Shown here in pieces: positions 2,556 through 20,500 of a stretch of DNA of 49,237 nucleotides; the first letter of the stretch is position 1; the number at the start of each line of letters is the position of its first letter. Location: contig CAMWVA010000009.1 in NCBI GenBank assembly GCA_947177575.1, positions 1 through 49,237 on the forward strand, written 5' to 3'. The notes below the pieces were generated by a model. That model did no database searches, was not told where the DNA came from, and saw only the letters and a program-made list of their open reading frames with translations. The position numbers and the translations under genes are program-made. Source of the DNA: an uncultured Porphyromonadaceae bacterium (GTDB lineage Bacteria > Bacteroidota > Bacteroidia > Bacteroidales > Muribaculaceae).

Positions 2556-4880
2556 CTACTTAACCGTTACAATACAGGTAGCCGAAATCTCAGGATCATC
2601 AACGGAAGTAGCGGTTATTGTAGCTGTTCCCTTACCTCGAGCCTCTATCGTATTACTTGTAGGACTAGTCATAACAGCAACAGAGGGATCACTTGAAGTC
2701 CAAACCACGCTTTTATTAGTAGGCTGCTCAGATGTGCCAGATGTGAATTCAAGGCTTAACGTTTGCTTATTACCTATTCCAGCATCCCATTTATCCGGTG
2801 ATAACTTGAGTCCTGTAACCGGTATTTTCTTGCTGACTTTTACCTTATAAGTCTTCTTTGCATTTGGTCCGACCCCATACTTTGCTGTAGCTGTTATGAT
2901 AGCTTCTCCCTCATTAGAACTTATAGCTGTTACCAGACCATAAGATGAGACAGTAGCAATATCGGGGTTATCTGATTCCCAAATGATCTCTTGAGAGGTA
3001 GGGTTTGACGGCTTGACTACCGTAGCTATCAAACTAAATTGATTTCCTTGATAGAAGGGGTTTGGTTGGTCTCCTGATAGGGTTATCTCTTCAACCCACA
3101 CTCTCGGATTAACCGTTACAATACAGGTAGCCGAAATCTCAGGATCATCAACGGAAGTAGCGGTTATTTTAGTTGATAATCCTTCTCCTCCTGTTCCTCC
3201 ATCTACAGCAGTCACAGTGCCGTAAGATGACACAGTAGCAATATTCTCATCATCTGACCTCCATTTGATATTTTTATTAGTAGCCTTTGCTGGCTCTACT
3301 GTAGCTATCAAATTGACTGTTTCTCCTATATTTCCGGTCCATGTATCCAGGTTCAGGCTGATAGATTCAACCGGAATCTTCTGCGTAACTTTGATTGTGC
3401 ATTCCTTATTTTTAGTAGGATTATCAACAGATCTGGCGGTTATTGTAGTTTCTCCTACACTTATACCTGTTACCAATCCGTCAGCTGCGACTTTAGCAAT
3501 AGAAGTATCTTTTGATGACCATGTAATATCCTTATTATTGGCGTCCTTCGGCTCCACGTATCCAATCAGAGAAACTGTTTGTCCTTCTGCGACTGTTACC
3601 TCTGAGACTTCTGCAGAGGAGTCGGCAGTTTTTATATGAACTGATTCAACCGGAACACTAAATCCGAAGAAGGGATTTAGTGTAACTGCTGTGTACGGAA
3701 AGACAGTGACAGTACAAAATAAGTTACGGTCGTCTAAACTTACATTAAGTGTATAGATATGATTTCTTAAGATAGCGTTGCCGAAATCTAATTCCTGTCC
3801 CTTATAGTCACCACTCATCGGAACTTCAAAAGTCTCCTGTAACAATGGTTTATCTTGGGCATCCGCTTCGTATGTGATGGTTATACTAAGTTTAGGCGTC
3901 TCTTCACTTCCTATCATCTGTTCCGGAATGAAACCAAACCATGTGTTATCCGCATCGTCTGTAGGATCTAACTTACCAAGTTTTATTGTTGTGGATTCAT
4001 TATATTTTGTTTCAGTAGGCCTGGCGGTCTCTACCTGATAACCATTTTCATATCCCGTAAGGGAAGGCACGATATAAGCATTCGGTCTCCAGCCTTGAAA
4101 TGTCACACTTTCAATTCGGGGGAATCCTTCGTCTGATTTATTCTGAATATTGTCAACCACTTTTATTTTAGCAAGAGCTCGTACCATAAATATATCTCCT
4201 ATCTGTTTCTTATATTCCGGACGTGGAGAGAACAGCTCATCCTCCTTTACTGTGAAGGATTGCTGTCCGAACATAGGAATAGCCCCTGCATAAAGGTCTC
4301 TTATAGCAGAGGTAGAGCCATCATTATTATAGATGGAACTCATTTCGAATATCCAGTTCTGGACTTGCGTTATCACGTCATTATATGTGGTTAAGTCACC
4401 GAGAGCTTCATAGCTGTGGTCACTACCTGCATTCGCAAGTACTATAATACGGAAATTCACATCCTCCTTTCCGATATTCTGATCTTTAAGAGTCTCGGCG
4501 GGAATTTTAGCAGTGACTGAATAAGCTCCCGGAGATTTTGTAACTGTCACATGGGAATCGGAAGTGGTCGAATCGTTTAGATGAGTCATTTTCATCACCA
4601 GCGGCCAGGCCTTATCGGTCCCTTCGACAAAAATAAAAAATGCAAAATCGTTGATGTCGATTTTGTCTTCGAATGCGGCCCAGTCACTATCAGTCTCTGT
4701 ATGGCCGAATGTATTATCAGCACGGGTCGGTCTCAGATTGGAGCATACCAACCTGAAGTTCATGGTTACGTATCCTGCCTCATCGTCCTCGGTGTCAGGA
4801 CGGCGGTTTTCGGGATCATCCATTGCGGAACATCCGGAAAGCAGAAAAAACAATATGAATGTCAGAACTTTGAATTTCAT
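2556..4880 (-). CDS. Fimbrial accessory lipoprotein with four C-terminal Ig-like (BIG2) domains
   Basis: 774 residues. It has a signal peptide with lipobox LLSGC (Cys17), then a fimbrillin-like region to about residue 410 that parallels the whole 419-residue product of 16307-17566; both end that region with PYTAVTLNP.FGFS. The left protein then continues with four bacterial Ig-like group 2 repeats of about 90 residues (about 411-774). Each carries the BIG2 pattern: a VxSIxL-type start, ITWSS or IKWRSDD in the middle, IATVSSYGTVTA, and ITATSVDDPE.SATC.VTV at the end. BIG2 domains are typical of surface adhesins and stalks. It follows the anchor gene by 24 bp and precedes the large distal gene, so it is probably a minor or tip-proximal subunit. 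The Ig extension is absent from the right-operon paralogue. Confidence 0.85.
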   Translation of the reverse strand: MKFKVLTFILFFLLSGCSAMDDPENRRPDTEDDEAGYVTMNFRLVCSNLRPTRADNTFGHTETDSDWAAFEDKIDINDFAFFIFVEGTDKAWPLVMKMTHLNDSTTSDSHVTVTKSPGAYSVTAKIPAETLKDQNIGKEDVNFRIIVLANAGSDHSYEALGDLTTYNDVITQVQNWIFEMSSIYNNDGSTSAIRDLYAGAIPMFGQQSFTVKEDELFSPRPEYKKQIGDIFMVRALAKIKVVDNIQNKSDEGFPRIESVTFQGWRPNAYIVPSLTGYENGYQVETARPTETKYNESTTIKLGKLDPTDDADNTWFGFIPEQMIGSEETPKLSITITYEADAQDKPLLQETFEVPMSGDYKGQELDFGNAILRNHIYTLNVSLDDRNLFCTVTVFPYTAVTLNPFFGFSVPVESVHIKTADSSAEVSEVTVAEGQTVSLIGYVEPKDANNKDITWSSKDTSIAKVAADGLVTGISVGETTITARSVDNPTKNKECTIKVTQKIPVESISLNLDTWTGNIGETVNLIATVEPAKATNKNIKWRSDDENIATVSSYGTVTAVDGGTGGEGLSTKITATSVDDPEISATCIVTVNPRVWVEEITLSGDQPNPFYQGNQFSLIATVVKPSNPTSQEIIWESDNPDIATVSSYGLVTAISSNEGEAIITATAKYGVGPNAKKTYKVKVSKKIPVTGLKLSPDKWDAGIGNKQTLSLEFTSGTSEQPTNKSVVWTSSDPSVAVMTSPTSNTIEARGKGTATITATSVDDPEISATCIVTVK
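2560..3168. repeat. Pair of exact 60-bp direct repeats inside the BIG2 coding region
   Basis: 2560-2619 and 3109-3168 are identical over 60 bp, while the surrounding BIG2 repeats have drifted apart. They encode the end of a BIG2 repeat (TATSVDDPEISATCIVTV on the minus strand). The copies are 549 bp apart, exactly 183 codons, so recombination between them would remove two Ig domains without breaking the frame. Confidence 0.9.
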
Positions 4881-4904: not shown

Positions 4905-5951
4905 TTATTGTAATGTAGTATTTTGGGGTGGTACCACAGCCCAGGAATTAATGTATATTCCTCCGGCTGCGTACAAGTTATTGTCTTCGTCTACGAAGAA
5001 CATAATCGAGTAGTCATCCTGACGGTCAAGATAGCTCTGGTCAGACATATCTCCGTAATGTCCTTTGACTAAAAGGAAATACTCGATTATGGGTATGCGT
5101 ATTATGTCGGTGTTGTCCGAGTTTCGGCGTACCGTCAGTGTCGCGTTGGCCCCCTTCATAAGCCGGCTCGACGACAGGTCGAAAATAGCTGTTGAGAAAG
5201 TAGTAAGTACGTCGGGATCATTTTCGTTATCAGGAGTAGTGATATAACCATACGTTACATCCCAAGGGGTGTATGTTACCATCGGTCCCTCAGCCAGAAC
5301 ATTATTGTTCCATCCCAACCATGCATCCGGAATGGTAATCTTTACATCGAAATCATTTTCTCCGATTGCTGTACCGTTATAGCGAGCCAAAAGAACACGG
5401 ATATCATTCGTGTCTTTCATCAGGGGAATTGTCAGCGTTTTTATTGTCGGTGCGGTAGGATTGACTGTAAAGGTATCATTCAGTACCGTACCGTGGTATA
5501 GGCCGGGCAGATGTGAACTGCTTATATTGAGGCCGTTCTTTTCGATAGTCTTAAGTTTGACTTCGAGTTCTTCTTTCGATGCAGGAGTATAGGTTGCAAG
5601 ATTAAAATCTTCATTATCTTTAAGTCCGCACCATGCCACAAAGTCGTATGTGCCCTCTGTCAGTGGTGTTTCAAGTGCAAAATCCTTGTCGGCCAATTCT
5701 TCTCCCGAGGCCGAATCACTCCACACAAGCGTTCCGTCGGCTGTATCAAATGCCCAGACATTCACCGATTTCACCTCATGTGCAAAGGCATCGGCAAACT
5801 TCAGGTTATAGTCATAGATAAAGCGTACACGCATGCTTACAGGACACTCCGGCAGATCTTCATTAAGCAGTGAACAGCCAGCCAATGAAATCAGAATGCC
5901 TGATGCGACGGAGGTTATAATAAGCTTTTTGTTGAGGTTCTTTAAAAACAT
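4905..5951 (-). CDS. FimB/Mfa2-family fimbrial anchor lipoprotein, left operon
   Basis: 348 residues with signal peptide and lipobox SLAGC (Cys26), followed by SLLNEDLPECPVSMRVRF.YDYN, the usual N-terminal signature of the FimB/Mfa2 family. It closely matches the 15291-16310 product (shared YDYN.EFA.AF, KDTN.LRVLL, DFDV.I.D, GWNN.VL, INSWAV or INDWVV near the end). Family members anchor the fimbria to the outer membrane and limit its length. It lies directly after the fimbrillin gene, which is the classic mfa1-mfa2 order. Confidence 0.88.
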   Translation of the reverse strand: MFLKNLNKKLIITSVASGILISLAGCSLLNEDLPECPVSMRVRFIYDYNLKFADAFAHEVKSVNVWAFDTADGTLVWSDSASGEELADKDFALETPLTEGTYDFVAWCGLKDNEDFNLATYTPASKEELEVKLKTIEKNGLNISSSHLPGLYHGTVLNDTFTVNPTAPTIKTLTIPLMKDTNDIRVLLARYNGTAIGENDFDVKITIPDAWLGWNNNVLAEGPMVTYTPWDVTYGYITTPDNENDPDVLTTFSTAIFDLSSSRLMKGANATLTVRRNSDNTDIIRIPIIEYFLLVKGHYGDMSDQSYLDRQDDYSIMFFVDEDNNLYAAGGIYINSWAVVPPQNTTLQ

Positions 5952-6050: not shown

Positions 6051-8102
6051 TTAAAGTTTAACTGACTGTTCCGGTACAAGAGCCCATTTCAGTATATTGA
6101 CTCTGTAAGCAAGGTAATATTTGTTCTCTTCTGCCGGCGGAACAATAGGATTATCCTTACCTCCGATACCGGTACCGAGACCGAGAATTTCAGTAACTTT
6201 CACATTGTAGCTGTGATTTCGTACTATACCGAAGTCACCTACACGTACTTTGGTCCAGTCCATACTCTCAGCATTCTTATTGGGATTATTAGAACGATAC
6301 CAACCGAAATGCTTGACAGGAATGTTGAAGTAAGCTGCGCCTGCGTTATATTTTGCACAGAAGCCTACCACTTTCATCAGCTCCTGATTTGTTTCAACAA
6401 AAGTAAGCTGGCCAGTTGCCGGAGTCTCAATAGCCTCGTCTGCTATTATCGTTTTATATCCGTCTGCGGTAGCTACATATATACCGCTCACCTGATCAGC
6501 GGTAACACCCTCTCTGAGCTGGAGAGTGCGGTAACGTTCAGGCACCTTCAGGCCACCCTTAACCTTTGCACTTGGCTCAGCTACCTCAAAAACAGCAACG
6601 AGCTTCTCAAGTTCCTCTTCTTTTGTCAGATCAAAATTTTCATAGTTATCACCTACCTTTTTGTAAAGATTAGTGGCTGCTTTAATGAGACCGCGAAGCA
6701 TACTTTCACCGCCGGCTATAGCTGACTCACCGACCTGTGAATCTTCTTTTGCATTGAAATATACGAAAGGTTTATTTGTAGACGGATCTATAAGATAAGT
6801 ATAAAAATCAGTGTCGGTAAGAGTTTGACCACCTATTCTTATAGTATAATCACCGACAAGTATAATTGACGGGAAAGCGGCAAGTATATTTTTTGAAGTA
6901 AGAGCCTTTGAGCCGACGGTGGTTTCATGCACATAGTGTGTGTCGGGTCCGTCTGTTTTAACCTCATATCCTACCGGTTCTTTATCACCGATTCCGTTGA
7001 TAAGTTCGTTGTAAGAGTAGTAGTGCTGGTGAAGAGTAGAAATATTTGCCACATCAGAAGATACTTCAGGATACTCCGCCGTGAAATATGCCGGTGACAT
7101 TCCCCAGTATGAACGGTGGTAGTTAGCGGAATTCCATACCCAGTCACCTGCAGTACCGTTGACAGTTCTGTTGATTATATCATCAAGCTCTTGATAACCA
7201 TAGTTATCAGCAAGAATATCACCTGACAACTGACTTTCTTCGCGGAATGACTTTACAATATAAGTATCTGTACATGACGCGTTAAGCATCCATGTCTGAG
7301 CATTAAATGACAGAATAACATTACTTCCTGTCGAGCCGTCTATAGGATTGGTAGCGGTGACGTAATCCTCCGGATCCACCGACTGGAATTCTAATTTGGC
7401 AGCGTAGCGTTCAACATATATATTCACTGTCAGAGTTCCATCATTCAATGCTTCCTTAGCTGCTGCTTCTGTATTGAAAAGCTGGTTCGGTGCTATCTGG
7501 ACAGCAATCTGGGGAGCTTCCGAATCCGTTGTGGGATAGAACACCGAATTGGACATTGAGAAGTACTTTGTAGTACCATCTGAAGAAGTAGCAAACAGGT
7601 CCGGACGAGTCTGAGTCTGAATTCCACCATTCCCCGTAAGAGGTGCCTCATCGAGATCGCCGGGTGCCTGAGGATTAAGGTAGCATATAACCTGAGTAGG
7701 ATTCTGCTGTCCGTTGCTGATTGTTACTCCAACCGTGGACTGATAAAACTTCTCAATAGTATTGGCTTCACCGGAAGTGACCTGTTCCCATGTTTCCTTT
7801 GAGAGGTCAATACCTACCGGCTCGCCGCCTACCTGATTTCCATCTTTGTCATAGAAGACAAAATAAGCTGTTTTAATCTCACTCTCACCACCTGCGAAAT
7901 CTACGCCATTTTCTGGAGTGCCGTCATCCGAAGCTGCTCGTGTTTCATTGCCGATAGCATCGCTGTGAAGGCTGAGATTCACGTAGAGAGTACGCTCTAT
8001 GTCAGTCGAGAGTTCGTCCCCCTTGTTAGGAATGTCATCTGACTGACAGGCTGTGAAGATAAGGCCTGAGGCTGTCACCCCATAAATAAAGAGTTTCTTC
8101 AT
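6051..8102 (-). CDS. Mfa1-type major fimbrillin lipoprotein, left operon
   Basis: 683 residues. The signal peptide ends in lipobox IFTAC (Cys19), followed by QSDD. An RAA site after about 55 residues (ETRAASDD) fits the arginine-gingipain-like trimming site of type V pilins. The C-terminus (residues near YLAYRVNILKWALVP then EQSVKL) is the conserved last strand of Mfa1-family major subunits, which is donated to the neighbouring subunit during assembly. It is the third gene outward from the shared promoter segment and is followed by an Mfa2-type anchor. It is probably the shaft subunit of the left fimbria. Its sequence differs strongly from the right-operon fimbrillin, so the two fibres would be antigenically distinct. 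Confidence 0.87.
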   Translation of the reverse strand: MKKLFIYGVTASGLIFTACQSDDIPNKGDELSTDIERTLYVNLSLHSDAIGNETRAASDDGTPENGVDFAGGESEIKTAYFVFYDKDGNQVGGEPVGIDLSKETWEQVTSGEANTIEKFYQSTVGVTISNGQQNPTQVICYLNPQAPGDLDEAPLTGNGGIQTQTRPDLFATSSDGTTKYFSMSNSVFYPTTDSEAPQIAVQIAPNQLFNTEAAAKEALNDGTLTVNIYVERYAAKLEFQSVDPEDYVTATNPIDGSTGSNVILSFNAQTWMLNASCTDTYIVKSFREESQLSGDILADNYGYQELDDIINRTVNGTAGDWVWNSANYHRSYWGMSPAYFTAEYPEVSSDVANISTLHQHYYSYNELINGIGDKEPVGYEVKTDGPDTHYVHETTVGSKALTSKNILAAFPSIILVGDYTIRIGGQTLTDTDFYTYLIDPSTNKPFVYFNAKEDSQVGESAIAGGESMLRGLIKAATNLYKKVGDNYENFDLTKEEELEKLVAVFEVAEPSAKVKGGLKVPERYRTLQLREGVTADQVSGIYVATADGYKTIIADEAIETPATGQLTFVETNQELMKVVGFCAKYNAGAAYFNIPVKHFGWYRSNNPNKNAESMDWTKVRVGDFGIVRNHSYNVKVTEILGLGTGIGGKDNPIVPPAEENKYYLAYRVNILKWALVPEQSVKL

Positions 8103-8192: not shown

Positions 8193-9650
8193 TTACTCCG
8201 CAGGTACGAGTTTCAGTCGGCCGTCGCCGGCTTCGTTGAGATTACGGAGGGCTTCGGCGGCGTATGGAGCGCCCATGCGTTCGGCCTGTTCGTAGAGCGA
8301 GCGAGCGGTGGTGTAGTCCTGCTGAAGGGCAGCTATGACGGCACGGGTGTAGACGGTACGCTCGGTGTGACCGGCACGGTCGAGATAGGCCTCGGCGCCG
8401 CGGTAGTCACCGCGTGCTATGGCCGCGTTGGCGGCGCCTAAGCAGAAGTCCTGATTCTTAGGATACAGACGGGCTGCCGTCTCATAGAGGTCGTAATAGC
8501 GCGGTGTGCCGGGTATGAGGGTAGACAGGGCGAAAGTCACTTCCTTCTCGTTAAGCTTTCCGGGAGCCGTGTGCATCAGACCGATGATTTCCTCGGGGTC
8601 CGTGAAGGCGCGTATGGTGTAATAGATGGAGTAGTCCGAGTGACGCAGCGTGGGATAGACGGTGGCTAAGAGCATGGCGTATTCACCCGGGAAGCGGCGC
8701 TGTATGGCCGTGTTCTTGGGGTCCGGCGCGAGGTCGCTGTCGATGATGGCCAGTATCTCGGAGCGGTGAGGCAGGTTGGAGGCCTCCACCCACTCACGCA
8801 GTCCCTCCCAGTCCTCGGCCTCGTAGGAGGTATGAATCAGACCGTGCGGGAAGGAATACATGTTCTCGACATACTCCTTCAGAGTGGCCGTACGGCCCTT
8901 AGCCAGACGCACGTTGTTGGCATACGAACCCTCGGGCGAGGCGAAACCCTTTATAAATATGGAGTCAACCGTCAGGTCCTTATCGTTCCTTACCGAGTCG
9001 ATGGTGGCTATGATTTTGCGCAGCTCGGCGGGATTGTTCATATAGTCGGGATACAGCTCCGTACGGTTCACAGGGAAGTTGATGTAGGCGCGTCCCTTCA
9101 GCGTGTCGGTCTTGTGCCCGAGGTCCTTGTTGACGGGAAGCGGCTTGCCGAAGTCGATGACCGCCCTGAACTGAGGTATCTCACAACGCCCTAACGGAAT
9201 GTTGGGCAGACGGCTCATATCGCAGCAGTTGCGCACATCGACGGCCACGTCCAGACGTGCCGATTCGAGCCACTGCGGAGCCGCTCCGCGGCGGGAGTAG
9301 GCGATGTCCTTAACATGTCCGGCACGGTAGATGTCGAGCAGACGTGTGTCGCCCTTACGTTCGTGCAGGTAATACAGATTGCGCCCCGCAACAGTGACCG
9401 GCTCGAAGCATACCGAGTCGAGTCCGTCGGGACTGTACAGAACGGGGGTGAGTGTGTATTCGCGGTTTTTACCCGGTCGGAGCGTGGCCGCATCGATGGT
9501 CATGCTCAGACCAACCTCGTCGTCATGCTGCTCAACGGCAACGTTTTCAAAGCGTACTTCGGGCGCCGGATAGGTCTTGGCCGTCACCGACGGACTCAGA
9601 ATACCGGAGCCGACCAGCGCCATGAGCGCTGTAAATACTGTTTTCTTCAT
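8193..9650 (-). CDS. DUF3868 / OmpA-like fimbrial assembly protein, left operon
   Basis: 485 residues from the ATG at 9650. I prefer this to an ATG at 9692, because it starts directly with a signal peptide (MKKTVFTALMALVGSG). The N-terminal part matches DUF3868 proteins found in Bacteroidales fimbrial operons. A central segment (INFPVNRTELYPDYMNN..., GFASPEG, N.VRLAKGRT) resembles the OmpA C-terminal peptidoglycan-binding fold. The C-terminal third has TPR-like helices (GAANAAIARGDYRGAEAYL, YEQAERMGAPYAAEAL). It is probably a periplasmic or outer-membrane-associated assembly component. It starts 31 bp after the DUF3575 stop. GC content is visibly higher than in the downstream subunit genes. 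Confidence 0.82.
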   Translation of the reverse strand: MKKTVFTALMALVGSGILSPSVTAKTYPAPEVRFENVAVEQHDDEVGLSMTIDAATLRPGKNREYTLTPVLYSPDGLDSVCFEPVTVAGRNLYYLHERKGDTRLLDIYRAGHVKDIAYSRRGAAPQWLESARLDVAVDVRNCCDMSRLPNIPLGRCEIPQFRAVIDFGKPLPVNKDLGHKTDTLKGRAYINFPVNRTELYPDYMNNPAELRKIIATIDSVRNDKDLTVDSIFIKGFASPEGSYANNVRLAKGRTATLKEYVENMYSFPHGLIHTSYEAEDWEGLREWVEASNLPHRSEILAIIDSDLAPDPKNTAIQRRFPGEYAMLLATVYPTLRHSDYSIYYTIRAFTDPEEIIGLMHTAPGKLNEKEVTFALSTLIPGTPRYYDLYETAARLYPKNQDFCLGAANAAIARGDYRGAEAYLDRAGHTERTVYTRAVIAALQQDYTTARSLYEQAERMGAPYAAEALRNLNEAGDGRLKLVPAE

Positions 9651-9681
9651 AAGCGGATGAGAAATTGCTGCGGTTGAACAA

Positions 9682-10272
9682 TCAGAAAGCATATACGATA
9701 CTTACAGCGGCCTTGGTCGGACCGACGTAGTTGTGAGGGCGCCGGTCGTCGAGCTTGCGCCCGCAAACGGCACACGGATAACGGTCATAGCGAGTGTAGG
9801 CCCAGCCTATCCCTATCTCGGCCTCAAGGCTCCAGTGCCGGCTCAGTATCCAGTCATAGCCGTAACCTATACCCGCTCCCGTGAACCAGCCCTGAGCACG
9901 CGAGTCCTTCAGTACCGAGAAGTCGGTGCCTAAGAAATCGAAATCGAGATTGACGTTACCGATGTTGTACTGCCCCCCGAACACGTGCAGTGCGAGGAAG
10001 TGGCCGCTGAAGGCGTTACAGAACCAGTAGCGCGCCTCGGGCATCGCAGCCCAGTGGCGCCACTGTTTGCCCTCGGACAGCTTCCACAGATTGAACTGCC
10101 CCGAAACATCAAGCGTCCACTTCGGTGCCAGACGGAACTCGACACCGAGATTAGGGCTCAGCGCAGCGTCATAAAGAAGGTTGGTCTTCAGCGCCGCATT
10201 CTGGGCGCCCAAACCACCGCGCCCGAAAATAAGCAGGCTCAGAAGTACAGCGGTTCGTAGAATTATGTTCAT
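9682..10272 (-). CDS. DUF3575 outer-membrane protein, first gene of left operon
   Basis: 196 residues from the ATG at 10272. A longer frame upstream lacks a sensible signal sequence, and MNIILRTAVLL matches the paralogue's MKILLRTAVLL. A signal peptide is followed by ALKTNLLYDAALSPNLGVEFRL, WTLD.SGQ.N, EARYWFCN, GGQYN and YVGPTKAA.SIVYAF. These are alternating beta strands ending in a C-terminal phenylalanine, typical of a small outer-membrane beta-barrel. A CxxC pair (YPCAVCG) lies near the end. DUF3575 genes regularly lead Bacteroidales fimbrial operons next to DUF3868. Identity to the right copy is high. The left inverted repeat ends 91 bp upstream of the start. Confidence 0.86.
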   Translation of the reverse strand: MNIILRTAVLLSLLIFGRGGLGAQNAALKTNLLYDAALSPNLGVEFRLAPKWTLDVSGQFNLWKLSEGKQWRHWAAMPEARYWFCNAFSGHFLALHVFGGQYNIGNVNLDFDFLGTDFSVLKDSRAQGWFTGAGIGYGYDWILSRHWSLEAEIGIGWAYTRYDRYPCAVCGRKLDDRRPHNYVGPTKAAVSIVYAF

Positions 10273-10363
10273 AACATTAGTTTGTCTGAAGTATATCCAA
10301 GCTGTGATAATTTGACTCCGGCAAGAAAGACCGCCTTTAGCGAACTTAAACAAGAGTGGTTGA

Positions 10364-10417
10364 GAGGATTAGCAAGTCAATCGAAGAGGGTAAAAATGCA
10401 CTCTCTTGAAAAGAGAT
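10364..10417 (+). repeat. Left composite inverted repeat (outer 21 bp plus inner 19 bp blocks)
   Basis: The outer block 10364-10384 is the exact reverse complement of 10818-10838 (21 of 21). The inner block 10399-10417 is the exact reverse complement of 10784-10802 (19 of 19). The 14 bp between the blocks differ from the right copy. The inner block contains its own palindrome, AAGAGA/TCTCTT with three central bases. Confidence 0.92.
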
Positions 10418-10739
10418 TTGGATGAGAAGTATATAATTGATTATCAGATATATAAAAGTGAGCAAAAAGTGGATTTGTTAAACACTATATAAGGTTGATT
10501 TTTTATAAGCTATCTAACTTCTTGATTTTATAGTGATTATGTTAATATAAATTAGCTAATACTTAAAATTTTATGTTATTTTTATATATTATTTATAATC
10601 AATAACATAAATTAGCTTTTAAAAAGTTAATTTTATATAATATTAAATAATTTTGATAGCTTAGATATACTTAATTATCCGAACTGATTGAAAAGGTTAA
10701 GTAACTGATTGAAATTTGTTAAAAAAATATGGTTATATA

Positions 10740-10771
10740 TTTGCATAACAGTAAAAGATAATCTAACTTTG
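10740..10771 (+). promoter_or_regulatory. Bacteroidetes consensus promoter driving the right operon
   Basis: TTTG at 10740-10743, 20 bp, then TAACTTTG at 10764-10771: an exact match to the sigma-ABfr -33/-7 pattern. A second possible set overlaps just upstream (TTTG at 10715, TATATTTG at 10736-10743). The start of transcription should be near 10776-10780, giving a leader of about 150 nt before the DUF3575 start. No TAnnTTTG is present on the minus strand near the left end of the segment. Confidence 0.8.
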
Positions 10772-10783
10772 TGCCCGATTAGT

Positions 10784-10838
10784 ATCTCTTTTCAAGAGAG
10801 TGTGATGAAGGTGGCTCTCGATTGACTTGCTAATCCTC
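10784..10838 (-). repeat. Right composite inverted repeat
   Basis: Mate of 10364-10417: inner block 10784-10802, a diverged 15-bp spacer, outer block 10818-10838. It starts about 13 bp downstream of the promoter -7 element, so it would be the first transcribed sequence of the right operon. Its inner palindrome would then form a small hairpin at the 5' end of the mRNA. Confidence 0.92.
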
Positions 10839-10927
10839 AGAAAATACCTCTGTAAGTCGCGGAAAGGGGACAGACCCGGCGGCTTCATTTCCCCCTAATC
10901 ATAGCCCAGATTAGCCATATTACTTTT

Positions 10928-11515
10928 ATGAAAATATTACTACGAACTGCTGTTCTTTTGGGTCTGCTCCTACTCGGGTACGGGACTGCGAGCGCACAGA
11001 AAGTCGCACTCAAGAACAACATCCTCTACGATGCCGCACTGACACCGAATGTCGGTGTGGAGTTCCGTCTTGCTCCGAAGTGGACGCTCGATGTCACGGG
11101 ACAGGTTAATCTGTGGACTGTTGACGGTCACAGGTGGAAACACTGGCTGGCACAGCCCGAGGCACGCTACTGGTTCTGCCGCTCGTTTACGGGGCACTTC
11201 GTGGGGGTGCATCTTTTAGGAGGACAGTATAACGTGGGCAATATCAATTTGGGTTCAAATATTTTCGGTATCAATCTCGAGGCTCTGCGTCACAAACGCT
11301 ATCAGGGATGGGGAGCGGGTGCCGGTATTGCGTACGGGTATGCGTGGCCCATAGCGCGTCACTGGAACATCGAGGCCGAGATAGGCGTGGGCTACATATA
11401 CACACGCCATGATGTCTATCCGTGCGCCGAGTGCGGCACACAGATAGCCAAAGATAAACATTACAATTACGTCGGTCCGACCAAGGCCGCCCTCAACATA
11501 GTCTATCTCTTCTGA
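10928..11515 (+). CDS. DUF3575 outer-membrane protein, first gene of right operon
   Basis: 195 residues with a clear signal peptide (LLRTAVLLGLLLLG, then ASAQ). The body aligns along its length with the left copy (ALKNNILYDAALTPNVGVEF, KWTLDVTGQ, EARYWFC, GGQYNVGNI, YNYVGPTKAALNIVYLF) and has the same CxxC (YPCAECG). It is probably a small outer-membrane beta-barrel used in fimbrial assembly or surface display. It starts 89 bp after the right inverted repeat. Its stop is followed after one base by the DUF3868 start, so the two are translationally linked. Confidence 0.87.
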   Translation: MKILLRTAVLLGLLLLGYGTASAQKVALKNNILYDAALTPNVGVEFRLAPKWTLDVTGQVNLWTVDGHRWKHWLAQPEARYWFCRSFTGHFVGVHLLGGQYNVGNINLGSNIFGINLEALRHKRYQGWGAGAGIAYGYAWPIARHWNIEAEIGVGYIYTRHDVYPCAECGTQIAKDKHYNYVGPTKAALNIVYLF

Positions 11516-11516
11516 C

Positions 11517-12971
11517 ATGAAAAGCCTGAAACATCTGTTAGCTGCCGGCTGTCTGTTAGTTGCCGGCCAGGCAGGCGCCCAGAACGTGGCGCGCTGCCAT
11601 ATCAATGACGTGATGATAGACAAGGGCACCGAAAGCCTCAGCGTCAGCTTCACCTTTCATCCCGAACAGTACCGTATGGGCCGCAACAATCTGCTGCGTA
11701 TCACTCCGGCCGTTACGACAGACGGCGACACGGCACGTCTGGCTCCGCTGACCGTGACGGGTAAGTACGCATGGTATCAGCAGATACGCAACGGAGGCGA
11801 CGACGCGCTGCTGTTCCGTGCGCGTCACGGACAACCGACCGAATATACCGGTACCGTAGCATGGCAGCCGTGGATGGACAACAGCACCTTCACGCTTCTG
11901 CTCGACACGGTGAGCTGCTGCGGCGGCGAACCGAAGTCAGGAGCTATGCGCGTGGCGCGTCTGGACTGGCGTCCGCGCCTTTTCGAGCCTGTGTTCGAGT
12001 ACGTCACACCTTCGGACACCATCGTGAAACGCTTTAACCTCTTGGGACGTGCCGATGTGCGCTTCATCGTCAACAAGACCGACATCGACTGGAGCTATGC
12101 CAACAACCAGACCGAGCTGGACTCGATACTGCGTACCGTCAGAGCCGTACATAATAATCCCGATGCCGAGGTGGATTCCATAATTCTGACAGGTTATGCC
12201 TCGCCCGAGGGTCCGTATAACAACAACGTGCGTCTGGCACGCGGGCGTACCGAAGTGATAAAGGAATATGTGCGCAATCACGGCGATTTCCCGGCTTCGG
12301 TCTATCATACCGCCTCGGTGCCCGAGGACTGGGACGGTCTGTGCCGCTGGCTTGCCGACAGCAATCTGCCCGAACGGGAGGAGATGATACGCTTTATCGA
12401 GACCGATAACGGTCCTGTAGCCACTAAGAACGACCGTTTCGCCGCTGCCTTCCCCGCGCAGTACCCGTGGCTTCTTACCAACGTCTACCCTCCCCTGCGC
12501 CATACCGACTACCGCATCACATACACAGTGCGCCGCTATTACGAGGTGGAGGAGATACTGCGTGTCTTCAACACCTATCCGGGTAATCTGAGTCTCAACG
12601 AGCTCTTTGTGCTGGCCAACAGTTACGGACGCGGCACAAAGGAATTTGACGAAGTGATGAGTACGGCCGTGCTGCTATACCCCAACGACCCGGTAGCCAA
12701 TCTCAATGCCGCCAACGCCAGTATGCAGATAGGCGACCTCCAACGCGCCGAACGTCTGCTGACAAAAGCCGGCGACAGCGCCGAGGCCGAGTATGCCCGC
12801 GGTGTGCTGCTCGGACGTCAGAAACGCTATGCCGAGGCACGCCGGTGCTTTGAGAAGGCCGCCCGCATGGGTGAGCAACAGGCTCAGAACGCTCTGCATC
12901 TGCTCAAAGAACTTGAGACACGCACCAGTCAGCCGGTGACATTCATAATCACGGAGGAAACCGTGAAGTGA
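11517..12971 (+). CDS. DUF3868 / OmpA-like fimbrial assembly protein, right operon
   Basis: 484 residues. The signal peptide ends AGQAGAQ. The architecture is that of the left paralogue: an N-terminal DUF3868 beta region; an OmpA-C-like segment (RFIVNKTDIDWSYANNQTEL, GYASPEGPYNNNVRLARGRTEV); and a TPR-like C-terminus (NLNAANASMQIGDLQRAERL, AEARRCFEKAARMGEQQAQ). It starts one base after the DUF3575 stop. Base composition is GC-rich compared with the fimbrillin that follows. Probable role: periplasmic or outer-membrane scaffold for fimbria assembly. Confidence 0.83.
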   Translation: MKSLKHLLAAGCLLVAGQAGAQNVARCHINDVMIDKGTESLSVSFTFHPEQYRMGRNNLLRITPAVTTDGDTARLAPLTVTGKYAWYQQIRNGGDDALLFRARHGQPTEYTGTVAWQPWMDNSTFTLLLDTVSCCGGEPKSGAMRVARLDWRPRLFEPVFEYVTPSDTIVKRFNLLGRADVRFIVNKTDIDWSYANNQTELDSILRTVRAVHNNPDAEVDSIILTGYASPEGPYNNNVRLARGRTEVIKEYVRNHGDFPASVYHTASVPEDWDGLCRWLADSNLPEREEMIRFIETDNGPVATKNDRFAAAFPAQYPWLLTNVYPPLRHTDYRITYTVRRYYEVEEILRVFNTYPGNLSLNELFVLANSYGRGTKEFDEVMSTAVLLYPNDPVANLNAANASMQIGDLQRAERLLTKAGDSAEAEYARGVLLGRQKRYAEARRCFEKAARMGEQQAQNALHLLKELETRTSQPVTFIITEETVK

Positions 12972-13031: not shown

Positions 13032-15149
13032 ATGGCGCATTATAACAAATGGCTCATAGGCTTAATGGGGTTATCGTTGCTCACAGCCTGTAGCGATGAT
13101 GTGGTGCAGAATACCGAGCCGACCCCGGTTGTCGCTGCAGAAGGTGACGGAGTATTCATGTCTATCAACATTCAGCTGCCTAACGGCAGAGATACCCGAA
13201 GCTATACAAACGGTGACGACAGTAGTAATGGCGGAACAGAAGTAGGTACAGATGCAGAAAACAACATTAATGAGGTACTGTTGGTGCTGGCAAATAATAA
13301 CAACGGCTTCATTGCAGCAGCTACTATAAATAACAACAAACTCATCAAGCTCACAGCAGGCGACGCACAGGCTTACCGTGCTACTTCCAAGTTCAGTAAA
13401 ACTGATCTCAACAATTTCTATCAGACCTATACCGGCGAGGGCAATCCTATAGTTAAGGTATTCCTTTTTGTCAATCCCAATGCAGGTATAGTCAATGCTA
13501 TTGAAGCAGCCAAAAAAACTCCCGGCTCAACCGGGTGGGTAAACGCTATCTGTACTCTGACGGCCGATCAGCTCAATACTTTGTGGACTGATAATAAATT
13601 TGTCATGTCCAACCTCTATATGGCAGAGCGCGAACTTCCTGCCAATCTTGATAAATGGGCTGCTTATTCACTCGAGAGTCATGCTTTCGACCTCTCGGGC
13701 TTCAATAATGCCGGCACAGATGATGAGATAGATAACCAAAACTCCAATCGCGGTGCTGTTAGGGTACACCGTATGGCTGCCCGATTTGACTTCAAAGACG
13801 GCTCTCCCGCGGAAACCGGTCCTAACACATATAATGTACTCTCGGTACGTAATGACGATGGTTCGGCCGGGGAGCCTCTGGTACAGGTCAGACTCAACAA
13901 GATGACAATGGTAAACATCAACAACAAGATGTATTACCTTGAGCGTACCTCACCCGACGGTATGTCAACCGATGCGGTCATACTCGGTCCTGAAAAGCCA
14001 TGGTATGTAGACGCAAACGGAAAGCCTATTACAATCACCGGTGATAACGGACAGCCTGTAACTGTCAGTGGTAACTTCGTAGTGACTCCCTGGTCAGATG
14101 ACTTCCAGACATTGACAGACGGGGAATTTACCAAAGCTGATTTTGATAAATATTTTTTAAGTCCCTTCTTCAACAATGAAGGAAGTACAATCAACGGATG
14201 GGTACCCGGAGGTCGTTGGGCAGGCTATACTTATAAAATAGACGATGTATTAACACAGCGTTCTGACAATTATGATAAAAAAGAGTATCATTTCTGGCGC
14301 TATTGTACAGAAAACGCCCTGCCCGATCCTGAAAATGAGAACGAGGTAAACGGTCTTTCCACAGGTGTGGTATTCAAGGGTAAACTTATAGCCACAGAGA
14401 AAGCTAAAGACTACGGTTACATAGGTACCGACGTGCCTAATGATGAAGAGCTGACTCTTTTCGATGTACTTAACAATACCGGTAAAGTCAAACTTGGCGA
14501 CACCAACAAAGATCCGATTATCTACATGCTTAATAACACTCTTTTCGTGACATGGCACAACCTGTACCTTGATGCTATAGCACAGTCTTTCAATCCCGAG
14601 ACAGAAGAGTGGAACCGTGCGAGCAGTCTCTATCAGGCTGTATTCGGTAACGGAGGTACCGGATACTCGTACATCAAAACCGAAGCCGGTGAAGGTCAGG
14701 AGGCAGTAATATACACTGACCCCCTTCCACAAGATGAAACCAGTGCCAACTATCTATGGAATCAATGGGATAAAGCCGGTCGTCCGGCCAGCGGCAATCC
14801 GGCAACCACAGCCTTCAAAGATGCAGCCACAGCAGCAGGTATAACCCTGTATCAGTCAAGCCAGGATGCTGATGACGGCTGGGGCTATTATTGCTACTAT
14901 TATTACTGGAACCGTCATAATGACAACGGTAATAACGGTGTAATGGGACCCATGGAGTTTGCAGTGGTACGTAACAACGTTTACAAACTGGCAGTGACCA
15001 ATCTCCGTCAGCTCGGCCATCCGCGTCAGCCTGAGAATGATCCTGATCGACCCAAACCTAATACTCCCGATGAATCGGATAATGTCTATATGACTGTTAC
15101 TGCTGAAGTTGTACCCTGGGTAGTAAGAATCAATAATATCGAATTCTAA
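13032..15149 (+). CDS. Mfa1-type major fimbrillin lipoprotein, right operon
   Basis: 705 residues. The signal peptide ends in lipobox LLTAC (Cys20) followed by SDD. An arginine at RDTRSYTN (about residue 57) is a candidate maturation site. The C-terminus MTVTAEVVPWVVRINNIEF is the conserved terminal strand of Mfa1-family subunits. An unusual aromatic stretch, YYCYYYYWNRHN, lies near residue 620. By position it is the shaft subunit of the right fimbria, the one expected to be expressed in the orientation shown. It is much more diverged from its left counterpart than the DUF3575 pair is. Confidence 0.86.
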   Translation: MAHYNKWLIGLMGLSLLTACSDDVVQNTEPTPVVAAEGDGVFMSINIQLPNGRDTRSYTNGDDSSNGGTEVGTDAENNINEVLLVLANNNNGFIAAATINNNKLIKLTAGDAQAYRATSKFSKTDLNNFYQTYTGEGNPIVKVFLFVNPNAGIVNAIEAAKKTPGSTGWVNAICTLTADQLNTLWTDNKFVMSNLYMAERELPANLDKWAAYSLESHAFDLSGFNNAGTDDEIDNQNSNRGAVRVHRMAARFDFKDGSPAETGPNTYNVLSVRNDDGSAGEPLVQVRLNKMTMVNINNKMYYLERTSPDGMSTDAVILGPEKPWYVDANGKPITITGDNGQPVTVSGNFVVTPWSDDFQTLTDGEFTKADFDKYFLSPFFNNEGSTINGWVPGGRWAGYTYKIDDVLTQRSDNYDKKEYHFWRYCTENALPDPENENEVNGLSTGVVFKGKLIATEKAKDYGYIGTDVPNDEELTLFDVLNNTGKVKLGDTNKDPIIYMLNNTLFVTWHNLYLDAIAQSFNPETEEWNRASSLYQAVFGNGGTGYSYIKTEAGEGQEAVIYTDPLPQDETSANYLWNQWDKAGRPASGNPATTAFKDAATAAGITLYQSSQDADDGWGYYCYYYYWNRHNDNGNNGVMGPMEFAVVRNNVYKLAVTNLRQLGHPRQPENDPDRPKPNTPDESDNVYMTVTAEVVPWVVRINNIEF

Positions 15150-15235: not shown

Positions 15236-15265
15236 GGTGCGGGAGTTCTCGCGGACTTCCGCACC
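15236..15265 (+). promoter_or_regulatory. Intercistronic hairpin between fimbrillin and anchor genes (right operon)
   Basis: 15236-15242 pairs with 15259-15265 (7 perfect bp), and the stem can extend by about four more pairs. It sits 25 bp before the anchor-gene start, in a 141-bp gap. There is no T-run, so full termination is unlikely. The position matches the hairpin at 5971-5994 in the left operon, although the sequence differs. Confidence 0.55.
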
Positions 15266-15290
15266 GCCAAACTACAAACTTACATCAGAA

Positions 15291-16310
15291 ATGACAACTT
15301 ATAAGACAACAGCTATGTGGCGTCTGCTTACGGCAGTAGTCATCACAGCGGCTTCGGTGCTGGCGTTGCCATCGTGCGAGAGTCTGTATGAAGATCTGGA
15401 TCCATGTCCGCAGGGTCTCCGCGTACGCTTCGTCTACGACTACAACATGGAGTTTGCCAACGCTTTCACCTCGCAGGTGGATTGTCTCACAGTGTTCCTC
15501 TATGATAAAGACGGGCATTGGCTGGCCACACGTACCGATGCCACTCCCGAACAGTTAGCTGACGAAAACTGGCGTATGGACTTCGATCTTGAGGCGGGTC
15601 ATTATACACTGCTGGTATACGGCGGTATGAAGTGTAAAGAATCATCATTCAGTTTTACCTCCGATCCTGCCGAAATACCGTTGCGTGATGTACGTGTACG
15701 TCTTAACAGCAATTGTCTGACTTCACCGGTAGGCACACAGCTGCATCCGCTTTTCTATGGTCGTCTTGATGCTGAGGTAAGGGAAGGCGGTACCGACTAT
15801 AATGAAGTCACGGTTAAGATGATAAAAGATACCAATAATCTGCGTGTGTTGCTTCAGCAGGCATCAGGAGCACAAATCAGTGAGTCGGACTTTGACTTTC
15901 GTGTGGTTGACAATAATACTCTTATGGGTTGGAACAACGATGTGCTCCCATCGCCCGAGGTAAGTTATATGCCGTGGACACGCGGAAACTCCTCACCGGG
16001 ACAGCTGCCAAATCATGATGAGGCCAGTGTGGCATGGGCCGAAATGAGCTTTCCGCGTCTTGTAACCGGACTGGAACCTCATCTTATTGTCACCAACCGG
16101 GAAAACGGCGACACCACCATTGACATACCCCTTAACAATTACTTGCTTCTGCTCAAGAGTCAGGAATATTCAAAAATGGGAGCCCAGGAATTTCTTGACC
16201 GTGAGAGCCGTTGGAGTATGCTTTTCTTCCTTGATTCCGATCTGCGTTGGATCAAGACAACCATAGTAATCAACGACTGGGTAGTACGCATCAACGACAG
16301 TGAATTATGA
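15291..16310 (+). CDS. FimB/Mfa2-family fimbrial anchor lipoprotein, right operon
   Basis: 339 residues from the ATG at 15291. An upstream in-frame ATG at 15237 lies inside the intercistronic hairpin and would place 18 odd residues before the signal peptide. The lipobox is ALPSC, followed by ESLYEDLDPCPQGLRVRFVYDYN, the Mfa2/FimB signature. Shared with the left paralogue are YDYN.EFANAF, KDTNNLRVLL, GWNNDVL, LLLKSQEYS and INDWVVRIN. Its stop overlaps the next start by 4 bp. Expected role: outer-membrane anchor and length control. Confidence 0.87.
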   Translation: MTTYKTTAMWRLLTAVVITAASVLALPSCESLYEDLDPCPQGLRVRFVYDYNMEFANAFTSQVDCLTVFLYDKDGHWLATRTDATPEQLADENWRMDFDLEAGHYTLLVYGGMKCKESSFSFTSDPAEIPLRDVRVRLNSNCLTSPVGTQLHPLFYGRLDAEVREGGTDYNEVTVKMIKDTNNLRVLLQQASGAQISESDFDFRVVDNNTLMGWNNDVLPSPEVSYMPWTRGNSSPGQLPNHDEASVAWAEMSFPRLVTGLEPHLIVTNRENGDTTIDIPLNNYLLLLKSQEYSKMGAQEFLDRESRWSMLFFLDSDLRWIKTTIVINDWVVRINDSEL

Positions 16311-17566
16311 GTAGACAGGCGCTTTATATAATATTGCTGCTCGTAGCTGCATGCCTTGGACAGAGTTGCCGTTCGTCTGAAAACTTAGATATGCCGAATC
16401 CGGATAATGCCGATCCGGAAGTTACGCTGTGTCTTATGGTCGAAATCAACAACAGTGCTGATATTAACCGGCCTGCCACCCGTGCTGACGACTATACTTT
16501 TGAAGGACCCGCATCTATATATGAACGTATCAACTCTCTGCGCGTCATAATAGTACGTCCCGACAACACAGTTGAGTACAATCGATTTGAAAGTCTGGAC
16601 AAAAATGAAGGTGTACAGAAATTCGGTGAACTGATTTTTCAGGTTTCAATCAGTCAGGGCAACCTCGACGACTCTACAGGAATACGTACTGAGAAAAAAC
16701 GTATTTATCTTATAGCCAATGAAGAATCGCTTCAGCCTGAAGAATTGCTTACTACACTGAAAAATCTCGAACCCGGTAACAAATTCTCATCTAAAACGGC
16801 AGAGGAGATGATTATTTCTACCGATTGGGAAAAGGGTATCACCCCACTTATTAACAATACAGAGGAACACAAAAAATTCGTTCCTATGAGCGAATTTTTC
16901 GATGTCGATGTTTCAGCCACTATCAAAGCCGGAGCAAGCAGACCCATACAGTACAAATCATTATTTATAACACGTGCTTCAGTAAAATTTGAATTCTCGG
17001 TTTCGGCTGAATCTTCTGCAGATTTACCCGGGGAGAGTTTTCGTATACAGACTATACGCTTCGAGAAGCTAATGCCTGAAGAATATCTTTTTCCACACGC
17101 AACAGAGTACACCCCCGGCAAATATGTGGACAATGTTATAAACCGGGCTATCACAGCGTTTGAAACGCCCTCGCTCAGCGGCGGAAAAACCGGAGCTATT
17201 GAATTTCACCCCTCCGACTTCGGCTGTGGTACAAACAATAACGGAGAAGCGTATGCAGACGAGTATAAACCTCAGCTATACTACTGCGAAAGCAAAAGCG
17301 ATAGAGGTATTGATGGGAATCCCTCATACGCCGTCGGAGTAATAGCTGAATTTTCCAATCCACCCCTACCATTAACAGGAGAAATCGTTACAGACACAGT
17401 TAAATTCAATCCGGTAGAACTGCCGAATCTTCCAATCCTACCGCGTAATACAGTTGTCAAGGTGCATTTTACCTTTAAAGACCGTACGCCGAAATGTTCG
17501 GTAACACTCCACCCTTATACCGCAGTTACTTTAAATCCGTCATTCGGTTTCAGTAATAGCAACTAA
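16307..17566 (+). CDS. Fimbrial accessory lipoprotein, right operon (no Ig domains)
   Basis: 419 residues. The signal peptide and lipobox (CLGQSC) are followed by an acidic linker and a fimbrillin-like body. It ends with CSVTLHPYTAVTLNPSFGFSNSN. It corresponds to the first 410 residues of the left gene 2556-4880, which continues into four BIG2 repeats where this one stops. The ATGA overlap with the anchor gene shows tight translational coupling. It is probably a minor or tip-associated subunit, as Mfa3/Mfa4-type proteins are in Porphyromonas, but I cannot assign it to one of these specifically. Confidence 0.8.
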   Translation: MSRQALYIILLLVAACLGQSCRSSENLDMPNPDNADPEVTLCLMVEINNSADINRPATRADDYTFEGPASIYERINSLRVIIVRPDNTVEYNRFESLDKNEGVQKFGELIFQVSISQGNLDDSTGIRTEKKRIYLIANEESLQPEELLTTLKNLEPGNKFSSKTAEEMIISTDWEKGITPLINNTEEHKKFVPMSEFFDVDVSATIKAGASRPIQYKSLFITRASVKFEFSVSAESSADLPGESFRIQTIRFEKLMPEEYLFPHATEYTPGKYVDNVINRAITAFETPSLSGGKTGAIEFHPSDFGCGTNNNGEAYADEYKPQLYYCESKSDRGIDGNPSYAVGVIAEFSNPPLPLTGEIVTDTVKFNPVELPNLPILPRNTVVKVHFTFKDRTPKCSVTLHPYTAVTLNPSFGFSNSN

Positions 17567-17592: not shown

Positions 17593-20500
17593 ATGAAACA
17601 TATTATATTTAAATTATCATATATTGTAGCTTTCATGAGCTGCCTTCTCGGCAGCTCATGTGCTGATGATTTTCCCCGTTACGAAACAGATATCCCTGAT
17701 GGTGAAGGTAGTCTTGTTGCTACGGTCACTTTTACTCCTACTGTACAGGCAAATCTCGGAGGTACACGCACACCGGGCGACTCTATAAAGGACATCAAAT
17801 GGTTATGTGTACTACTCTATACTCCAGATGGCAACCTCTTCAAAAAATATGGAAAGAGTGAACTTGCAGATTACAAGAGTGAAACTTACACTGTAAGACC
17901 TAATGACCACCTTGACGGTACAGATGCTCAACCTGGTGAGACAACGACTGCCAAGGCTACCTTCTCTCTTCCTGGACTTCCTTTCGGCAGATATAGAATA
18001 TATGCAGTGGCCAACATGGGGGATCTTGAGGACTATGAAGAGAACATAAAGACAGAAGAAGGTCTTAAGAGTATCTCACTCACGTGGAATCCGGTGAATG
18101 TACCCTCAAACAACCAGATGTTTGGCTACTTTACTCCAGCCAATGATATGGAGGCAGAGGGATTTAATGGCGAGTTAATTGTGTTCAAGAGCAGTGGAAC
18201 TGAAATACACTCCTGGCTTAAAAGAGCAGCCTCTAAGGTGACTGTAGCCTTTGATCCCAGCGGTCTCAATCAGGATGTATGGGTATATATTAGGAATGTC
18301 ACAATCCGTGATATTCCAAAGACCTGTTATCTCGGTAAGGAAAACACGCCAACTGACACAGCTTCACTTTACAATCATCTTAAAACTCCGTATCTCGCTC
18401 CTGATTATACCCATAAGTCAGAAGCAATCGCTAATACAAGGTTTGAATATAACAGTAACGGACTCATTACTACTCCGGATGTACACACAGGTCCTGCCAA
18501 GACAGACGGTCTTGAACTTACTAACTCTATACGCAAGGCTATTCCAGCAGGGGCGCATGATAACGATGCTCCCTCTCTTTTCTTTTATGAAAATAACCAA
18601 GGGGATAAAAGTAAAAGAGAAGACAAAGAGAAGTTTGATAAACGCCAATACCATTCCAATGACACAATTAACGGAGTAGGAACTCCTATCCGGAAAGATA
18701 CGCTTAATAACGATTTCAAAGACCGTGTGCCCTACGGCACATATATTGAAGTCGAGGCTTACTATATCTCCACTAATCCGAACAAGGTCGGAGAAGGCTC
18801 TATCAAATACCGTTTCATGCTTGGTAAGGATGTGAGGTTCAATTATGATGCTCAGCGTAACTATCATTTCAAACTGACGCTCGGATTCAACGGCTGGGCC
18901 AATGACCCTGACTGGCATATCGATTTCGAACTTCCTGAGCCGGGTATTGAGGTACCACCCGTTTTCCGTGTCTCCTATCTTTACCAACAGAAGAGTGAGT
19001 TGCCTATCCGTATTCTCGGAGATTGTACAAATCTTACAGTAACTATAACCGAAAATAACTGGGCACCCTATGATTCTGATGCTAAAGCAGCTCCATATTT
19101 TGTACCACCTACTGAAACCGCAACTGATCCTGATCCTGTTTATGCTTTTAAATGGAATCGAGAAGCTTATGAGAATGCTGAATATATGAAGAAGTATAGA
19201 AATAGTGATGGTACAGTGCGTGATAGTGTAGATTGTGCTTTTGGATTTCTTGCTCTTCACCTGCCGGATAGACGTACAACCAAAGTTAACGAATCTTTTA
19301 GCGCCTCTGCTAATAATGAACTTAGAAGAATATATAGAGAAGACAAGGAGGGCAATCGGTCGTTTAACTCTAATGATCTTTCTGTAGGTCATCACACGAA
19401 TACGTATGATGATAAATCCACATCTTCGGATGATGCATACGATGTTAAGTATGTTTATGGTGATAATAAAAATGTACTGCCAAACCAGAAAACACTAATG
19501 CTACCAGTGTGGACCCGTGCCAAGACTCTGATTGAAGGTTCTGGTTTTTCCGGTAATAATCCGTACGAAGGCTACCAACGAAAGGCAGTACTTCATATAA
19601 ATGCAACTTTTGCTGACGGAACTGTAATACAGAAAGATGTTACAGTGCTTCAGGTGAAACGTCTCGTAAATCCTAAAGGTGTGTGGCGTGAGTATAACAG
19701 AAGTGAGCCGTTTCATGTAACTTTATTAGAAGCCAAAAGTGGTAATGATATGGCAAATTTCATACCATTTACTTCAGAGGGTGAATGGACGGCCTTCATT
19801 GACGGTCAGACAGACACACAAAATAAGTTTTCCATTAGTCCCAACGATAAAACTATAGGATATCAGAAAGGGGATACTATTCATGGTTATACAGGCTCCA
19901 CTATTGATTTTGATATTAATTTTAATGTTCCGGTAGATTCTTTACAGTCTGCATGTGCAATAGTGAAAGTACTTTATCATGGTAACCAGTGTCTACACAA
20001 AATCCTTGTTCGCAAAGGCTATCATGCTCCGATAACAATGGGTAATAACAGGTGGAGTTCTTTTTCTCTTTATCAAGCTACTTACGTAAGTGGTGCAGAT
20101 GGTACAACAGACCGTTATAACGCTGTACTTACCAAAAATCCACTTATGTTAGGTTCGATGTTCCGTCGCGGAAAACAAAGTTTAGGCATATTGGTAAAAA
20201 ACAATATGACAAAAGAATTAGGTCCTTTTATGCCACCTGGCAACCTCCCATTCGAAGTAGCTAAAAAAACTAATCCGAATCAGACTGATTGGGATAAACA
20301 GACCTGGTCCCAAATTGGATGTAGAGATGACCGCAGGAGTAGCAGGACCTTGGGTACTTTTACGGCTGAAGATGGCCAAAGATACAGAGTACCTACTCTT
20401 GGGGATTTTCACTCTCTGACTAATAATGCTGAATTCGGATTCGGTGTTGTCTACGGCAGTGCTGCAACAAAGCCTCAGGAAGTGGCAGATAGTGCTTATG

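Follow-up and report, generated by a model that had tools for sequence, protein, structure and literature searches.

A putative invertible promoter shared by two divergent type V pilus operons of a Muribaculaceae bacterium, found in the opposite orientation in a related species

Inversion of a promoter-carrying segment swaps expression between alternative surface proteins in the sap system of Campylobacter fetus and the Hin system of Salmonella. These systems belong to other phyla, depend on other recombinases and act on S-layer protein or flagellin, Hin acting through a repressor, whereas at the locus described here it is type V pili that would be toggled. Type V pili are described as surface structures of Bacteroidota with largely unknown ligands (PMC12632263). 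The nearest described arrangement is the Tsr19 (BF2766) system of Bacteroides fragilis, in which one tyrosine recombinase is described to invert a promoter immediately 3' of its own gene and also a distant one (PMC4747536). The likeness is one of layout, a local plus a distant promoter; each invertible promoter of that system, as presented, serves one gene cluster (PMC4747536), whereas here two operons would share one. For the capsule promoters of B. fragilis, Mpi is described as a global invertase of many surface promoters, with UpxY-type antiterminators downstream (PMC12632263, PMC4747536). A NusG-family gene likewise follows another switch of the genome under study, but Mpi is a serine recombinase, and since no match to PF00239 (serine recombinase) was found in this 3.2-Mb draft of 210 contigs, 86.5% complete, a serine invertase of the Mpi system was rejected as the candidate. 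In gut Bacteroidota, fimbrillin genes and tyrosine invertases are reported to be enriched near invertons, some of which carry the Bacteroides promoter motif; promoter orientation is used there to sort genes into regulatable and non-regulatable ones, and the word "divergent" is absent from the main text of that paper (PMC11892184). No report of a two-operon pilus toggle in Bacteroidota was found in the literature searched, which is weak evidence of absence. The mechanism considered here is of a known kind, of which a toggle serving two paralogous type V pilus operons represents a less common form. New are this pilus toggle of two operons, with its natural inversion from one species to another, and a family of switches across the genus in which a spacer rule is obeyed by all 26 pairs among the matches listed.

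Within the window, i.e. the whole stretch of 49,237 nucleotides analysed, the segment 10418-10783 is very probably an invertible promoter, flipped by a tyrosine recombinase, that toggles between the operons R1-R6 and L1-L6 (Table 1). Each operon is a run opened by a DUF3575 gene and continued by genes for a TPR protein, an Mfa1-type fimbrillin, an Mfa2 anchor and two more proteins. The stalk fimbrillin and the Mfa2 anchor, present in both, place the two operons with the type V (Mfa1/FimA) pili. The Mfa2 anchors are 32% identical across the axis, and the L3 and R3 fimbrillins gave no mutual match at E 1e-3. The first-pass annotation had described two complete, mirror-image Mfa-type operons; the mirror image is borne out by the DUF3575-TPR-Mfa1-Mfa2 runs on both sides, and each operon does have its Mfa1-type fimbrillin and Mfa2 anchor, but completeness does not hold for the left one, as L6 runs off the window at the contig end.

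Table 1. Coordinates of the predicted features of the pilus locus and of the candidate recombinase (positions in the window unless a contig is named)
Feature	Coordinates	Strand	Remarks
L6, large probable tip protein	3..2456	-	cut by the window end; weak DUF4906 (below cut-off); 64% to R6
L5, Big_2-domain protein, probable tip/accessory subunit	2556..4880	-	part similar to R5 (27%)
L4, Mfa2 anchor	4905..5951	-	
L3, Mfa1-type fimbrillin (stalk)	6051..8102	-	NCBIfam 114.8 (<130 cut-off); over Pfam Fimbrillin_C cut-off
L2, TPR protein	8193..9692	-	35% identical to R2 over 470 residues
L1, DUF3575 protein, first gene of left operon	9682..10272	-	61% identical to R1
Left outer 21-bp repeat	10364..10384	+	in left-operon leader
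Left inner repeat	10399..10417	+	repeat search; recombination core TCTCTT-GAA-AAGAGA at 10402-10416
Putative 366-bp invertible segment	10418..10783	.	repeats; interior reversed relative to flanks in G123/L036
-33-like TTTG	10740..10743	+	20 nt before -7 box; read directly
Putative -7 promoter box TAACTTTG	10764..10771	+	consensus match; 21 nt from right core, toward right operon
Right inner repeat	10784..10802	-	repeat search; recombination core 10785-10799, + strand spacer TTC
Right outer 21-bp repeat	10818..10838	-	in right-operon leader
R1, DUF3575 protein, first gene of right operon	10928..11515	+	
R2, TPR protein	11517..12971	+	weak OmpA match
R3, Mfa1 family fimbria major subunit	13032..15149	+	over NCBIfam cut-off
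R4, Mfa2 anchor	15237..16310	+	
R5, probable tip subunit	16307..17566	+	Mfa1/FimD-tip matches far below cut-off
R6, large probable tip protein	17593..20916	+	L6 homologue; no Pfam match of its own
Tyrosine recombinase C107, 400 aa	C107:10124-11326		domains Arm-DNA-bind_5, Phage_int_SAM_5, Phage_integrase

Between the divergent DUF3575 genes lie an inner inverted repeat of 19 nt, with 366 nt between its arms, and an outer one of 21 nt that nests it, both 100% identical; inner and outer arms combined make 54/55 nt at 81%. In dinucleotide shuffles of two regions of the window (20 each), perfect inverted repeats reached at most 11 and 13 nt. Of 104 regions shuffled overall, 20 had some shuffle reaching at least 13 nt, so that little weight attaches to repeats of 13-14 nt at other places. 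The 21-bp and 19-bp blocks and the 366 bp between them lie exactly where they had first been placed, and both blocks of the composite repeat then proposed are real; they are better split, the inner one holding the core shared by a genus-wide family of switches and the outer 21 bp being found without mismatch, among the loci scanned, only at the locus family of this toggle. Its part GAGGATTAGCAAGTCA is kept in G132 and, on both sides, in the related species G123, and stands on both sides at a near-constant distance to the core in two species. With a 15-nt probe of the outer repeat, the remaining loci scanned gave only two matches, with 2 mismatches (L082 and L113), which look like chance. The outer repeat, for which the best explanation given here does not account, may serve as an accessory site or be a leader element common to both operons. 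That the repeats act as part of a structured leader was dropped as unsupported, since there was no Rfam match up to E 1 across 9900-11300 and the two leaders showed no advantage in folding over shuffled sequence (z 0.47 and 1.15).

The presence of the outer repeat in both leaders, mismatch-free at this locus family only, and the mirror-image paralogy of the operon starts (205 nt at 75% outside the repeats) speak for another reading, in which the repeats are leader elements copied along with the duplicated operons and no inversion takes place. This reading is contradicted by the comparison with G123. When the 521-bp region was searched by DNA similarity in 111 genomes of the genus, some match at E 0.01 was obtained in 38 of them, matches covering the outer repeat in G000, G123 and G132 only, and the toggle was found in 2/111; G007 (7.6e-12) and G033 (6e-7) matched the inner repeat and the non-promoter end. 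In G123, in which loci L036 and L141 lie on one contig of 90,642 bases, the flanking genes keep their orientations and are 90% (L1), 79% (L2), 92% (R1) and 85% (R2) identical to those of the window, and the direct-orientation blastn alignments extend no further than 10417 and 10783, the edges of the repeats. Local alignment of the interior ends in inverted pairing gave scores of 65 for the left end of the window against the right end of G123 (null maximum 28) and of 54 for the right end against the left (null maximum 27), and direct pairing gave 15 and 16 (null maxima 24 each). Between its repeats, G123 carries the segment the other way round, with both flanks in place, and the segment must have inverted at least once since the species parted. 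As in other invertons, both orientations were found between the same flanks, here between species, so that they attest inversion in evolution and not a rate in one population. A search of related genomes for both orientations, named in the first-pass annotation as a check, thus turned up the reversed segment across species, and the promoter inversion switch proposed there appears well founded on this reversal and on the promoter box at one end only (see below). Copied leaders without inversion are considered very improbable, the occurrence of the core at unrelated genes and the spacer matching described below also standing against them.

Inside the segment of G123, between the outer cores, a third degenerate core was observed (L036:9703-9717), with one mismatch and the same TTT spacer. 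G132 (L035/L260) is a third case and is counted as disrupted or unresolved: its right operon is joined to a window-like non-promoter end (score 84 vs 28), a PD-(D/E)XK transposase-family gene starts about 175-200 bp past the core, at the position of the far half, the second core is absent from the contig, and a piece of the left operon lies on a separate contig ending in L2. Divergent DUF3575 pairs were recognized by eye in G000, G122 and G123 among the matches listed. The view that all such pairs are toggles was rejected, as G122 has no inverted repeat. Since these counts concern the matches listed, and the search by DNA similarity misses diverged switches, other toggles may exist.

The inner 19-bp repeat contains TCTCTT-NNN-AAGAGA, a palindrome except for the spacer, and this core itself may already be included in published inverton motif tables. 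Seven exact copies are present in the genome under study (control pattern, 1): the window pair with spacers GAA/TTC, a second pair with GGA/TCC upstream of the NusG-family gene, and one each on C107 and near the starts of C16 and C75. Three of the seven (C16:22-36, C75:45-59 and C107:11398-11412) are no more than about 150 bases away from a contig end, and the C16 and C107 cores, of which the spacers match, may represent opposite ends of a single assembly-breaking switch. Across the genus, 70 of 101 genomes contained the core, at 256 sites in total. From 82 of these sites, in 24 genomes, 26 pairs of cores less than 1.5 kb apart were obtained, the window pair included; among these matches listed, the spacers were reverse-complementary in 26/26 and identical in 0/26, against a mean of 0.94 and a maximum of 5 reverse-complementary pairs in 10,000 shuffles. 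Such matching is what strand exchange with a required matched overlap predicts, and alone it cannot tell tyrosine from serine enzymes. With its paired cores and reverse-complementary spacers GAA/TTC, the window locus belongs to the switch family defined here by TCTCTT-NNN-AAGAGA. None of 10 locus pairs within the same genome shared a spacer, but 70% of shuffles likewise give 0, so that non-colliding spacer addresses within a genome gain no support from this count.

Several members of the family are of interest in their own right. The second complete switch of the genome under study (C46:16973-17194; L138:8974-9195), with spacers GGA/TCC, has its promoter box facing away from the NusG-family gene. 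In G007, a switch (L142:4648-4850; G007:C10) ends some 9 nt ahead of a gene for an aromatic amino acid lyase, with the promoter box toward the lyase, and reads from the sequence as a putative invertible promoter on a metabolic gene. Another switch (L205:4663-4851; G101:C34) is located upstream of SspB-/SspC-like genes (PADLOC), its promoter box pointing away and a C107-family recombinase nearby; this locus is possibly a phase-variable phosphorothioate defence system. L143 (L143:3076-4971; G033:C17) adjoins a 488-aa Phage_int_SAM_5 protein that may be a diverged recombinase, and its promoter box stands at 68 nt and not at 20-24 nt from the core. Runs of N within two switches (L207:3665-4641, G124:C64; L094:9582-9749) could be mixed-orientation assembly gaps or masking. 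Besides the window, eight switches have divergent flanking open reading frames (L143, L205, L206, L207, L208, L209, L210 and L217); the nearest long frames across them gave no mutual match at E 1e-3 in 8/8 (a 110-aa right frame skipped for L208), and hence no second paralogue toggle was found among these eight.

Near the right end of the segment, the putative -7 box is preceded by a TTTG that resembles a -33 element in sequence and spacing. The consensus of the Bacteroides promoter is given as TANNTTTGY (PMC12632263), and TAnnTTTG is named as its -7 consensus (PMC4747536). Among 25 distinct unmasked switches, the window's included and two being near-identical copies from two genomes, a single end carried TAnnTTTG at a distance of 20-24 nt to the core in 23, both ends in none and neither end in two (L143 and L214); from the TAnnTTTG frequency elsewhere in the same segments, 0.23 hits were expected in this register, which had been picked after inspection of the switch readings. 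The inverted repeats of the window, bracketing a promoter predicted from the consensus box, are those of an inverton.

In the window, two more TAnnTTTG boxes are present on the + strand (10648 and 10736); the minus strand has none from one start codon to the other, this box type being the one scanned. No other TAnnTTTG aims at the left operon, which is itself cut by the contig end. In L036 of G123, TAnnTTTG between the start codons is on the - strand only and faces left, and in G122, the divergent DUF3575 pair without inverted repeats, there is one each way. This distribution weighs against a looser arrangement, in which the switch does invert but the left operon has a promoter of its own outside the segment, so that inversion would turn the right operon on or off and boost the left. 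Promoters of other types could nevertheless feed the left operon, as the scan covered TAnnTTTG boxes and alternate sigma factors are described in Bacteroides (PMC12632263). In addition, 18 of 28 switch rows, in a crude reading of open reading frames with some loci repeated, are without two divergent flanking genes, so that on/off control is the commoner layout. The looser arrangement is regarded as unlikely, though it retains a real share of the probability.

Six PF00589 matches were identified in the genome under study, among which the C107 gene is the only one with a core in the examined flank, 71 nt past its stop codon. A tyrosine recombinase with an adjoining core, as befits the switch family, is thus present in the genome, on another contig than the toggle. 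In the best 30 loci of the C107 family, the core with at most one mismatch was found in the examined flanks of 17 and the exact core in 9; in 17/17 core-bearing loci it lies 3' of the recombinase gene, 59-779 nt away, and in the other 13 of 30 loci the examined flank has no core. Exact cores numbered 15 in 111 kb of recombinase loci vs 11 in 1,329 kb of DUF3575 loci, and at least two cores were found in 46/73 genomes with the C107 family vs 9/28 without it (p 0.007, ignoring kinship). A second homologue (66%) is located on C37 of the same genome, with no core nearby. G007 has no C107-family match at E 1e-30 despite six cores, implying that another enzyme can serve such sites. In NCBIfam, C107 gave only Xer-type matches far below the cut-off and no invertase-specific name, and no PDB relative was found at E 0.001. 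Judging from this co-occurrence, a C107-type tyrosine recombinase is the likely invertase. The arms of 54/55 nt at 81% would also be open to general homologous recombination over about 54 nt, with no dedicated invertase; against it, most other switches have perfect repeats of just 15-24 nt (two rows are longer, one of them via an N run), and the frequency of cores next to tyrosine recombinase genes far exceeds the background, which leaves this route hardly credible.

With inversion by a tyrosine recombinase as the preferred reading, the enzyme would recombine the two head-to-head TCTCTT-NNN-AAGAGA cores with matching spacers and thereby turn the segment, also within one population. At one of its ends the segment would hold a single promoter that points outward; as assembled, this promoter would transcribe R1-R6 and, after inversion, L1-L6, and a single switch would thus give cells with one pilus or the other.

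The operons selected in this way differ between species in an uneven manner. When the window is compared with G123, identity is 79-92% for the right anchor and for the two leading genes of either operon; R3 is 43% and R5 49% identical, L3 has no match in the G123 locus at E 1e-10, and the left anchor of G123 is closer to R4 (55%) than to L4 (28%). Between G132 and the window, R1, R2 and R4 are 86-96% and R3 44% identical, and R6 and L6 are intermediate (57-69%). From these comparisons, the selector and the early genes appear to stay and the stalk and tip genes to change. Taken jointly with the core family, a broader proposal, which is offered as tentative, would be that one tyrosine invertase serves genome-wide switches by 3-nt spacer addresses, one of them being a two-way type V pilus selector with exchanged pilin and tip cassettes. 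The odd-length spacer would always fix polarity, permitting inversion within a pair and forbidding joining across loci, and the genus would have evolved a selector of which the switch and assembly genes are conserved and the pilin and tip genes swapped like cassettes.

If the toggle is true, one promoter would divide a population into cells of two adhesive types, and both pili would never be expressed from this locus in the same cell. For the family, the spacer-matching rule offers a simple sequence signature for finding its switches, among them those ahead of a NusG-family gene, of the gene for an aromatic amino acid lyase and of defence genes like SspB and SspC.
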